A stretch of 64,000 nucleotides of DNA. Source: Candidatus Zipacnadia bacterium (GTDB lineage: Bacteria > Armatimonadota > Zipacnadia > Zipacnadales > Zipacnadaceae). Under the pieces are notes generated by a model. It saw only the letters and a program-made list of their open reading frames with translations, was not told the DNA's origin and made no database searches. The translations under genes and the position numbers were made by a program. The DNA is taken from positions 17,758-81,757 of the forward strand of contig JALGUR010000012.1 of the NCBI GenBank assembly GCA_029820565.1. Direction: 5' to 3'. Positions 48,177-52,478 of this stretch are shown here, in pieces (the stretch's first letter is position 1; the number at the start of each line of letters is the position of its first letter).

Positions 48177-48725
48177 TCAGCCGACGCGGCCAGGGCTGCC
48201 TTGGGGAAGTCGGCGTGGCCCACAGGCAGTATCTTCAGTAGCTTCTCCACGAGCCACTGCCCCCAGAATGCCGTTGATAAACTTGCCTGACTCGGGGGTA
48301 GCGAATTCTTTAGCCAATTCCACGGCCTCATCAATAGTAGCCCCTACGGGAACCTCGGGTAAATACCACATCTCGGCCAGAGCCAACCGCAAGATGTTAC
48401 GGTCAACTACCGGCATTCGCGCCAGCCGCCAGCCTTCAGCCTGCTGGCTTATGATGCGGTCTATAGTTTGGGCGTGTTCCATATATCGCTGGGCCAACTG
48501 ACGACCGAAGCCCCAAATCTCATCGCTGAGTTTCGCTATTTCCGCCGGCGACATCTGCCAGCAATCTATCAGAACATTGAAGATGACTCTGGCCTGCTCG
48601 ATAACCTCGTCCAGGGGCTTGCCGGTCACGTCGGCGGCGTATAATAGAGCCAGACTGAACTGTCGCGCCCGGCGTCTGGCCCCTGCCACAGGTTTGTGAT
48701 CCACTGCGGGTCGACCTGTCTTCAT
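48177..48725 (-). CDS. nusB: Transcription antitermination factor NusB
   Basis: ARRRARQFSLALLYAADV ... VDRNILRLALAEMWYLPEVPVGATIDEAVELAKEFATPESGKFINGILGAVARG. Confidence 0.9.
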   Translation of the reverse strand: MKTGRPAVDHKPVAGARRRARQFSLALLYAADVTGKPLDEVIEQARVIFNVLIDCWQMSPAEIAKLSDEIWGFGRQLAQRYMEHAQTIDRIISQQAEGWRLARMPVVDRNILRLALAEMWYLPEVPVGATIDEAVELAKEFATPESGKFINGILGAVARGEATEDTACGPRRLPQGSPGRVG

Positions 48726-48951: not shown

Positions 48952-50307
48952 TTAACCTCCTTCGTCCAGTCCCATCCGGCGCTCCAGAAAGTGAGTGTCT
49001 ATCTCCCCGCGCCGGAAGTAGGCGTTACCCAAAATACGTAAGTGATAGGGAATAGTAGTACGAATTCCTTCCACTTTAAGGCTCTGTAAAGCGCCTTCCA
49101 TTCTGGCTATTGCTCCGGCTCGTGTCTGGTCCCAACAAATCACCTTAGCAATCATCGGGTCGTAGTGAGACGAGACCACGCTACCGGCTGACACTCCGCT
49201 ATCAACGCGCACTCCCGGGCCTACTGGAGTTTGCCACCGAGTAATCCTGCCTGGCGAGGGCGCGAAGTCCCGGTCACCATCAGCCGCCATAATGCGGCAT
49301 TCCAGGGCGTGGCCATTGAACCAAATCTGACCTTGCTCACAACTCAGTGGTTCGCCCGTAGCGATTCGTATCTGTTCGCGAACGATATCCACGCCGGTGA
49401 GCATCTCGGTGACCGGATGTTCTACCTGAATACGAGTATTCATCTCAATGAAATAAAACCGTCGCCGCTCATCGAGCAAAAACTCCACAGTTCCAGCATT
49501 GCAGTAGCCAACTGCCTCGGCAGCCTTTACCGCTGTCTCCCCTAACCGTCGCCGCAAACTACCGGAGACGACTGATGATGGCGACTCTTCCAGCAGTTTT
49601 TGATGGCGGTATTGTATGGAGCATTCTCGTTCGCCTAAGTACACAATATTGCCGTGGTTATCGGCCAGGATTTGCACTTCAATATGGCGCGGCTCTTCCA
49701 GGTATTTCTCTAAGTACAGTTCTCCGTCTCCGAAAGCATTGTGCGCCTCAGTACGCGCCTGCTCCAGGGCCTGGACCATTTGCTCGGCATTATGGATGAC
49801 CCGAATTCCCCGCCCTCCGCCTCCCCGGGCCGCCTTTATCATAACCGGATAACCTAATTGGTCAGCCACCTCTCGGGCCCCCGATAAATCCCGGATGCCA
49901 TTAGCGCTGCCGGGTACCACTGGCACTCCCGCCTCGCGCATAATGCGACGAGCCCGCGCCTTGTCACCCATTTGCGTGATCACTTCTGTGGGCGGACCAA
50001 TGAAGGTAATTTTACATGCCTCGCAAGCCTCAGCGAAATCGGGGTTCTCAGAGAGATTACCATAGCCGGGATGGATTGCTTCCGCCCCGGTGACGACCGC
50101 CGCGCTAATGATGTTAGCCACATTCAGATAACTATCCTTATTCGCGGCCGGCCCCACACACACTGCTTCGTCGGCCAAACTAATGTGCAATGCGTCAGCG
50201 TCCGCCTCGGAATAGATAGCCACTGTTTCTATCTTTAGTTCCCGACAGGCCTGTATTATGCGACAGGCAATTTCCCCGCGATTAGATACCAGAATCTTGT
50301 TGAACAT
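48952..50307 (-). CDS. accC: Acetyl-CoA carboxylase biotin carboxylase subunit
   Basis: MFNKILVSNRGEIACRIIQACRELKIETVAIYSEADADALHISLADEAVCVG; QILADNHGNIVYLGERECSIQYRHQKLLEESPSS; FIEMNTRIQVEHPVTEMLTGVDIV. Confidence 0.97.
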   Translation of the reverse strand: MFNKILVSNRGEIACRIIQACRELKIETVAIYSEADADALHISLADEAVCVGPAANKDSYLNVANIISAAVVTGAEAIHPGYGNLSENPDFAEACEACKITFIGPPTEVITQMGDKARARRIMREAGVPVVPGSANGIRDLSGAREVADQLGYPVMIKAARGGGGRGIRVIHNAEQMVQALEQARTEAHNAFGDGELYLEKYLEEPRHIEVQILADNHGNIVYLGERECSIQYRHQKLLEESPSSVVSGSLRRRLGETAVKAAEAVGYCNAGTVEFLLDERRRFYFIEMNTRIQVEHPVTEMLTGVDIVREQIRIATGEPLSCEQGQIWFNGHALECRIMAADGDRDFAPSPGRITRWQTPVGPGVRVDSGVSAGSVVSSHYDPMIAKVICWDQTRAGAIARMEGALQSLKVEGIRTTIPYHLRILGNAYFRRGEIDTHFLERRMGLDEGG

Positions 50308-50487: not shown

Positions 50488-50886
50488 TTAGTACTTCTCA
50501 TGGCCGGGAGTGGGGCAATACACCTGTCCTGAAGCCGGGTCGTACACATACGCATATCCGCTGACCGGACACTTGAGCGCCACACGCCAGTTCGGGTCAA
50601 GAGCGGGTGGGTAACTCTCGGTATCAATTGTCTCCATCTGAATCATCTGGCGCAGTTGGCTGAGATTATTCATACACTCAACGCTTTCACCCTTTTGTAT
50701 GGCCTTGCCCGGCAGGGTCTGGGCCTCTCCGGGAAATCGCGGCTCTGACTCCCCCTCCGGTCCGCCCCGGCCGCGTAGCGCAAAATACCCGCCGGCCAGC
50801 AATCCGATAAGTATGATGACTACCAGAATTTCGATCAGAGCGAACCCGCTGTGCTTACCACGTGGTGATGACCAAGCGCTCATCAC
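50488..50886 (-). CDS. Type IV pilin-like / type II secretion pseudopilin
   Basis: Prepilin cleavage/helix HSGFALIEILVVIILIGLLAGGYFAL followed by a short globular domain. Confidence 0.85.
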   Translation of the reverse strand: MMSAWSSPRGKHSGFALIEILVVIILIGLLAGGYFALRGRGGPEGESEPRFPGEAQTLPGKAIQKGESVECMNNLSQLRQMIQMETIDTESYPPALDPNWRVALKCPVSGYAYVYDPASGQVYCPTPGHEKY

Positions 50887-51329
50887 TATCCTTCACCCCT
50901 TGAGGAGTGAAGTCGCATCAGTACCTCGCCATATTGTACTGGGTGTCCATCTTCGGCTAATATCTCGGCAACCTCTCCTGTTGCCGGGCTTAGCACTTCG
51001 GTAAGCCGGCGCAGGGCGTCAATGGTGCCGACTACTTGCCCTTCCGCTATACGGTCACCGACCTCTACCAACGGCTCAGCTCCCGCCTCGCTACCTCGAT
51101 AGAACAGGCCCACCAGATTCGCCCGGACTGGTACAGTCGCCTCAGCCATTGGCCGGGCACTAACAGGTGGCTGCTCGGGGGACGGTGCGCAAGGCTCAGT
51201 CGTATTCGGCTGACCTTCGCAGCGTCTAATCCGCACCATCTGCTCGCCATCCCGCACTGAAAGTTCCTGGGCTGAGGAGGATTTCAGGATCTGAATCAGT
51301 TGTCTTATTCGGCTTCGGTCCACTTGCAT
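50886..51329 (-). CDS. AccB/BCCP-like protein lacking the biotinyl lysine
   Basis: VRANLVGLFYRGSEAGAEPLVEVGDRIAEGQVVGTIDALRRLTEVLSPATGEVAEILAEDGHPVQYGEVLMRL; EAMKM-type site replaced by DALRR. Confidence 0.88.
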   Translation of the reverse strand: MQVDRSRIRQLIQILKSSSAQELSVRDGEQMVRIRRCEGQPNTTEPCAPSPEQPPVSARPMAEATVPVRANLVGLFYRGSEAGAEPLVEVGDRIAEGQVVGTIDALRRLTEVLSPATGEVAEILAEDGHPVQYGEVLMRLHSSRGEG

Positions 51330-51354: not shown

Positions 51355-51915
51355 CTATGCGCGACCAGCGTATTCCCTCGTACCAGTATATACGGAAACT
51401 ACCTCCCCTACTTCTATGAACAGCGGAACCTCTACAGTGACACCGCCTTCGATCACCGCCGGCTTAGTTCCCCCTTGGGCGGTATCCCCGCGCACCCCGG
51501 GGTCGGTCTTCACTACCCGCCGCTCAACCACATTGGGCAGTTCAATACCGATGAGTTTGCCCTGATAGGTAGTAAGCGTGACTGCTTCGCCTTCTTTGAG
51601 CCACTGGCGCTGTTCACCGATTTGCTCAGCAGTCAATTGCACCTGTTCATAAGTCTCATTATCCATAAAGTAGTAGTTTTCGCCGTCACTGTACAGATAC
51701 TGGTGTTCACGACGCTCGACATAGGCTTCGGCCACTTTCTCAGTAGAGCGAAATGTCTTCTCATAGACGTTGCCGTTCTCAATATCTTTGAGTTTAGTGC
51801 GTACCATCCCGGCGCCCCGGCCAACGGTCTTATGCCGGTCGGCAGAAATCACCTGCATCACACGCCCATCTAATTCAATAGTAACTCCAGGCTTGAGGTC
51901 TAAAGTCTCGATCAA
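51355..51915 (-). CDS. efp: Elongation factor P (TTG start inferred)
   Basis: LKPGVTIELDGRVMQVISADRHKTVGRGAGMVRTKLKDIENGNVYEKTFRSTEKV; KTDPGVRGDTAQGGTKPAVIEGGVTVEVPLFIEVGE. Confidence 0.95.
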   Translation of the reverse strand: MIETLDLKPGVTIELDGRVMQVISADRHKTVGRGAGMVRTKLKDIENGNVYEKTFRSTEKVAEAYVERREHQYLYSDGENYYFMDNETYEQVQLTAEQIGEQRQWLKEGEAVTLTTYQGKLIGIELPNVVERRVVKTDPGVRGDTAQGGTKPAVIEGGVTVEVPLFIEVGEVVSVYTGTREYAGRA

Positions 51916-52124
51916 TGGAGCTATGCCTCCCTGCGTAGTGAGAAACAACTGCCCCCAGCACTGCCTACCACTATGGTGAAGTCTACAACATCTGGCAGGA
52001 AAAGTCAAACCAAACGACAACCCCTCTTCGCCTTGCACCCACTACCGGCTACCTCCAAGTCCCCTGGTCTTATTGGGTTAGCGGTGATGCTCTCGACAAC
52101 TTGAGTCGGCCTCAACCACGCGCC

Positions 52125-52226: not shown

Positions 52227-52478
52227 ATGGCTGTGGCTTATAGCCGACGACCTTACCGTCGCGAATACTCAGGCCGCAAGCGCCAGTGCCGGTTCTGCGT
52301 ATCTCGCGACGAGATTATTGATTACAAGGATATGAAACTACTTCAGGCGTTTACTGATGAACGGGGCCGCATCCGCAAGGCCCGTCGCACCGGGGCCTGC
52401 CGCCGCCACCAGAGTCGCGTGGCTCAGGCTATCAAGCGGGCTCGTGAGATAGCCCTGATACCTTACACTACAGATTAA
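52227..52478 (+). CDS. rpsR: 30S ribosomal protein S18 (zinc-ligand-bearing form)
   Basis: RKRQCRFCVSRDEIIDYKDMKLLQAFTDERGRIRKARRTGACRRHQSRVAQAIKRAREIALIPYTTD. Confidence 0.96.
   Translation: MAVAYSRRPYRREYSGRKRQCRFCVSRDEIIDYKDMKLLQAFTDERGRIRKARRTGACRRHQSRVAQAIKRAREIALIPYTTD

Follow-up and report, generated by a model that had tools for sequence, protein, structure and literature searches.

The efp–accB2–accC locus

The window, that is, the whole stretch of 64,000 nucleotides analyzed here, lies in contig C53 of a Candidatus Zipacnadia genome (G000; 3.4 Mb, 165 contigs, 89.5% complete). Candidatus Zipacnadia belongs to the Armatimonadota by NCBI placement. The locus has the order efp–accB2–pilin-like–accC–nusB–xseA–dxs (Table 1). 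Throughout, AccB2 denotes the copy linked to efp and accC, and AccB1 the lysine-bearing copy, which is mostly linked to hom. The efp ORF as listed is probably too long at its N terminus, and the gene downstream of accC is presumably nusB, as recognized from its sequence and the known gene order. The ribosomal protein bS18 gene (52227..52478, + strand) is divergent from the efp–accB2–accC operon, a layout repeated in the same-genus genomes G001 and G002.

Between accB2 and accC lies a pilin-like protein with a single transmembrane segment. Its C-terminal domain, CPVSGxxYxYDPxTGxVxCPTPGHE, is conserved, with 48 further Armatimonadota loci carrying it at the corresponding position, whereas several lineages have lost the prepilin motif GFxxxE. 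This protein could be a co-opted membrane anchor. The plant acetyl-CoA carboxylase (ACC) is docked to the envelope by other proteins (PMC7712654).

Table 1. Features of the accB2 locus, with positions in the window
Feature	Position	Strand	Evidence
efp, elongation factor P, upstream of accB2; locus marker	51355..52038	-	TIGR00038, 231.7 bits; syntenic in most loci
accB2, BCCP-like protein without biotinyl lysine, 147 aa	50886..51329	-	ORF; TIGR00531 match below cut-off; Biotin_lipoyl; phylum-wide synteny
N-terminal helix (residues 5–17) and β-hairpin (residues 22–27, 30–35), proposed AccC-binding/tetramer-forming element	51225..51317	-	AlphaFold pLDDT 79–91; alignment with E. coli AccB N terminus; role by homology with the C. 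aurantiacus BC1 hairpin
Disordered linker (residues 38–64)	51138..51218	-	pLDDT <50 at residues 40–53; highest column entropy, 2.82 bits
BCCP-like barrel-sandwich core (residues 65–142), thumb of normal length	50904..51137	-	Foldseek; thumb length comparison
Former biotinylation site D104-A-L-R107-R108, replacing EAMKM	51006..51020	-	R107 codon CGC, 51009..51011; alignments
VQYG signature (residues 131–134), mark of the efp-linked AccB class	50928..50939	-	Motif counts
Pilin-like single-TM protein between accB2 and accC; starts at the accB2 stop	50488..50886	-	Pfam N_methyl
accC, biotin carboxylase	48952..50307	-	TIGR00514, 664 bits against a cut-off of 626.5
nusB-like gene, downstream of accC	48177..48725	-	Sequence recognition and known gene order; used as synteny probe

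Loss of the biotinylation site

The accB2 reading frame is intact and starts with ATG. The site of AccB2 reads GTIDALRRLTEVLSP, its equivalent in E. coli CIVEAMKMMNQIEAD; within the core IDALRRLT, Arg107 (codon CGC, 51011..51009 on the - strand) occupies the position of the biotinyl lysine. K16 is the sole lysine of the window protein and the barrel is lysine-free, so that no shifted lysine is available for biotin or lipoate. Judged from its sequence, the barrel cannot be biotinylated, and it likewise lacks the lipoyl lysine at the barrel tip that defines lipoyl carriers and GcvH.

AccB2 is nonetheless a full-length homologue of AccB. The NCBIfam profile TIGR00531 (AccB) matches residues 5–140 with an E-value of 1.1e-21, at a score of 77.9 bits that falls below the cut-off of 115.2—a cut-off also missed by the lysine-bearing AccB1 of genomes G112 and G138. 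Pfam Biotin_lipoyl matches at 7.5e-12, and a profile of AccB2 orthologues aligns with E. coli BCCP (4HR7) over its full length, including the N terminus, with an E-value of 2.9e-29. Of the features of a functional AccB, the window protein thus has the barrel fold, the N-terminal region, and the thumb, and it lacks the lysine of E-A-M-K and a score above the family cut-off.

The first-pass annotation had described an AccB-like ORF with Arg for the target lysine and EAMKM turned into DALRR, beside a normal AccC. The former is borne out by the reading frame, the codon, both family profiles, and the 4HR7 alignment, the latter by AccC (48952..50307) passing its equivalog cut-off. The alignment of orthologues from relatives, which it had proposed, revealed neither EAMKM nor ORF decay in the order of the window: the same-genus orthologues are 67% and 56% identical and carry R and G at the lysine position, and lysine occurs there in none of the 25 accC-linked orthologues of this order (WS1/Ca. 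Zipacnadia, Armatimonadota).

Predicted structure of AccB2

The AlphaFold model of AccB2 features a helix (residues 5–17), a β-hairpin (22–27/30–35), a disordered stretch (40–53), and a confidently modeled barrel (mean pLDDT of 85.5). By Foldseek, the modeled barrel superposes on E. coli BCCP (4hr7_G) with a TM score of 0.93 on the target and an rmsd of 0.9 Å. The thumb segment has 18 residues, the E. coli length, in 38 of the 47 lysine-less Armatimonadota AccB2 and in all AccB1; it is shorter in some AccB2. Unlike that of AccB2, the N-terminal region of AccB1 yields a low-confidence model, a contrast that is only a hint since few sequences were aligned.

Conservation was compared in 34 genomes carrying both copies. 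For AccB2, column entropy averages 1.46 bits over the N-domain and 1.48 over the core, as against 2.82 for the linker; E22 and R33 of the N-domain are kept in 34/34 and 33/34 sequences, respectively. The hairpin is equally conserved in both copies (1.49 bits in AccB2 versus 1.50 in AccB1), so that a specialization of AccB2 as a scaffold has weak evidence here. The tip of the barrel follows its own pattern: E (31/34), A (27/34), L (34/34), R or G, K or R, any residue, T (30/34), D or E, and V (31/34), with the consensus EAL[R/G][K/R]xTDV in the order of the window. The tip is rewritten rather than eroded, and in that order it bears a new conserved motif.

A second AccB in the same genome

The genome of the window encodes a second AccB, AccB1, at G000:C14:4010-4396, which adjoins hom (homoserine dehydrogenase) and carries VEAMKLFNEV. 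The search for a second accB that the first-pass annotation had called for was thus successful, and its suggestion of a replacement of the true BCCP by the AccB-like protein is wrong for this genome, which encodes a true AccB1 and one AccC: the only full AccC match in G000 is the one beside accB2. The subunit gene accD is also present.

No birA was found in G000 with TIGR00121, in an incomplete assembly, nor in the same-genus genome G002; G001 has one. Since birA occurs in 55 of 61 Armatimonadota genomes and in 34/34 of those of good quality, its absence from G000 is most likely an assembly gap, and that from G002 probably likewise. A lineage without biotinylation was considered and rejected on the 34 good-quality relatives.

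Distribution in Armatimonadota and Chloroflexota

The Armatimonadota sample comprises 61 genomes from 24 families and 39 genera. All 61 have AccB matches, mostly two each, in two constant settings: efp–accB2–(pilin-like)–accC–nusB–xseA–dxs and accB1–hom. The lysine is kept in 59/59 AccB1 (52 found next to hom and 7 recognized from their sequence) and lost in 47 of 55 AccB2, where it is replaced by R (26), G (15), S (3), D (1), T (1), or H (1). A lysine at position +1 occurs in 20 of these 47. Nearly all genomes have AccB1, and a two-by-two test of AccB1 presence against lysine loss gives no signal in this phylum.

Eight AccB2 keep the lysine, as ESMK, ESLK, or ETLK, despite the presence of AccB1 (L047, L051, L052, L056, L057, L106, L114, and L116). 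All are outside the order of the window, in distant Armatimonadota families, which points to lineage-specific losses; their coexistence with AccB1 means that the loss is not obligatory. By sequence, they are possible intermediates.

Outside Armatimonadota, a match was found in a Ktedonobacterales MAG, which has efp–accB–xseA with EALNVLNEV and a second AccB with EAMKVFNEI. A sample of 81 Chloroflexota genomes yielded 40 efp-type AccBs and 30 others. The lysine is lost in 27 of the 40 (K 13, N 8, G 8, Q 7, R 3, and D 1) and present in 30/30 of the others, giving K in 89/89 AccB1 of both phyla together. None of the 27 has a lysine at −1 or +1. The Chloroflexota counterpart lies at the efp–xseA locus, and accC is not adjacent in the stretches read. 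One lysine-less AccB with QSLGHVSDV (L242, Chloroflexota G137) has an AccA-like ORF, not efp, as its neighbor.

All 13 lysine-keeping efp-type copies come from Chloroflexota genomes without a detected AccB1 (rechecked with the TIGR00531 profile), whereas AccB1 accompanies 26 of the 27 lysine-less copies. The Fisher p of 1.2e-9 overstates the case, because the genomes are related and afford only four to five independent comparisons; an independent-pairs test on these four to five pairs is underpowered and not significant.

Direction of change and selection

A C-terminal motif of the V-x-[YFW]-G type occurs in 88 of 95 efp/accC-linked AccBs versus 1 of 82 other AccBs (AccB1), and also in the single AccB of lysine-keeping Chloroflexota. 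This signature, common to the efp-linked copies of both phyla and to the lysine-keeping single AccB, points to the efp-linked gene as the older AccB, whose role in carrying biotin would have passed to AccB1. In a tree, AccB1 of both phyla group together (support of 92); the proteins are short, and 49 of 182 branches are starred. The tree is too weak for firm origins and leaves one versus many losses of the lysine unsettled, and at least nine changes of lysine state are required on this weakly supported topology. For close pairs, dN/dS of AccB2 is approximately 0.1 to 0.4, with AccB1 values of the same order. Across the Armatimonadota, purifying selection keeps AccB2 in place beside accC.

Proposed function and alternatives

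AccB2 has the parts for an assembly role and lacks the part for carrying, which is why a scaffold or a stoichiometry-setting subunit is proposed. On balance, AccB2 is probably a non-carrier subunit of heteromeric ACC, similar to the plant BADC proteins, that would scaffold or tune AccC. Once AccB1 had taken over biotin carrying, the older AccB would have been free to lose its lysine and may have specialized in its other job, namely holding biotin carboxylase (BC) together. Its N-terminal helix and β-hairpin would bind AccC, and its hairpins would contribute to an eight-stranded hairpin barrel joining two BC dimers. The empty barrel, seated on the complex, would set the number of biotin-bearing AccB1 arms per AccC tetramer, and this number would in turn govern assembly and activity of ACC.

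The first-pass annotation had also raised the possibility of a bacterial BADC-like regulatory or structural subunit. This fits the true BCCP elsewhere in the genome, the phylum-wide conservation beside accC, the purifying selection, the retained N-terminal region, and the lost lysine; the part concerning regulation or assembly of ACC is still an inference. The lack of an adjacent accC in the Chloroflexota stretches counts against a scaffold, and the conserved tip EAL[R/G][K/R]xT suggests a function of the tip beyond that of a pure scaffold. A bolder version of this proposal is offered tentatively: in two phyla, the locus-ancestral AccB would have been converted repeatedly to a BADC-like ACC subunit, obligate but no longer a carrier, once a second AccB had taken over the biotin, and the pilin-like protein of Armatimonadota would tether the complex to the membrane.

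The main rival, which we regard as unlikely, is an inhibitor. AccB2 would compete with biotinylated AccB1 for AccC, either by acting as a decoy or by inserting its basic tip into the BC active site as a pseudosubstrate, and thereby lower malonyl-CoA synthesis. The retained fold and N-domain and the conserved basic tip EAL[R/G][K/R] are compatible with this, as is one account of plant BADC as a competitor of BCCP for BC (PMC7712654); reconstitution and NMR of the plant enzyme, however, favor an assembly role (PMC11926652). A strict pseudosubstrate is at odds with a tip residue that varies between R and G from family to family, and the location within the accC operon speaks for a stoichiometric partner.

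Control of the efp–accB–accC operon by the N-terminal region, with no role in the enzyme, is distinctly improbable. E. coli AccB has been proposed as such an autoregulator through its N-terminal region, and a conserved locus, a retained N-terminal region, and a role for which biotin is unnecessary would all fit; but conservation is as strong in the core, with which an N-terminal regulator could dispense, as in the N-domain, and the Chloroflexota locus has no adjacent accC. We give hardly any credence to a decaying duplicate or an assembly or sequencing error: the lost lysine codon and the low AccB score are outweighed by intact reading frames, the same loss in independent genomes, and the dN/dS values, and the sister genomes refute it for the order of the window. 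Just as implausible is a carrier using another residue or cofactor, such as a lysine one position on or lipoate. The +1 lysine of 20 of the 47 lysine-less Armatimonadota copies could be read in this way, but displacing the target lysine is known to prevent modification, the lysine-less Chloroflexota copies have no lysine on either side of the site, and the window AccB2, which has none after residue 16, argues against both options.

Implications

Two bacterial phyla thus hold a second AccB without biotin capacity, kept intact by selection beside a normal carrier and resembling a plant helper subunit. No report of a bacterial BADC or of a non-biotinylated AccB was found in the literature searched, with subscription papers and preprints outside its scope. 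If the proposal is true, bacteria too evolved a non-catalytic subunit of a kind thought peculiar to the plastid enzyme of plants, in the enzyme that commits carbon to fatty acids. Whether BADC acts as a brake or as glue is disputed, and a bacterial counterpart offers small, expressible systems to settle the question, with relatives at several stages: a single lysine-bearing AccB; AccB1 with an ESMK-type AccB2; and AccB1 with a lysine-less AccB2. In both phyla, the annotation AccB may sit on a protein unable to carry biotin, with consequences for metabolic models and for the choice of accBC genes in engineering.

Comparison with known systems

E. coli AccB/BCCP (4HR7 and 1BDO) shares with AccB2 homology over the whole length, the N-terminal region, the linker, the barrel with its thumb, and a nearby accC. 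AccB2 differs by the change from biotinyl lysine to Arg, DALRR in place of EAMKM, and a score under the TIGR00531 cut-off.

The epsilon (AccE-type) subunits of actinobacterial acyl-CoA carboxylases are non-catalytic bacterial "glue", as cited in PMC11926652. By this description, they resemble the proposed AccB2 as bacterial non-catalytic subunits. To our knowledge, they are not BCCP paralogues.

In BC1 of Chloroflexus aurantiacus (8HZ4), the N-terminal hairpins of four BCCPs assemble into an eight-stranded barrel by which two BC dimers are held together; without the hairpin, BC1 forms dimers of lower activity, and removal of the BCCP core leaves tetramer formation unaffected (PMC11077971). AccB2 has the same N-terminal β-hairpin and, by analogy, would be expected to bind BC and join dimers with it. 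The BCCP of BC1 is fused to BC and biotinylated on K553, whereas AccB2 is not part of such a fusion and has no biotin.

The BADC (biotin attachment domain-containing) proteins of plants are BCCP paralogues that lack the AMKL motif, are not biotinylated, and bind BC and BCCP; in 2025 they were described as unique to the plant enzyme (PMC11926652). They are reported to aid BC–BCCP assembly (PMC11926652) or to inhibit (PMC7712654). Like the BADCs of plastid heteromeric ACCase, AccB2 is a BCCP paralogue with the BCCP fold that has lost the biotinylation motif and coexists with a true BCCP; the likeness is one of sequence, and binding of BC and BCCP is suggested by analogy. Unlike the BADCs, AccB2 is bacterial, lies at the efp–accB–accC locus, and probably derives from the locus-ancestral AccB. 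The lysine is retained in bacterial relatives at this locus, which makes an independent origin of AccB2 and plant BADC likely.
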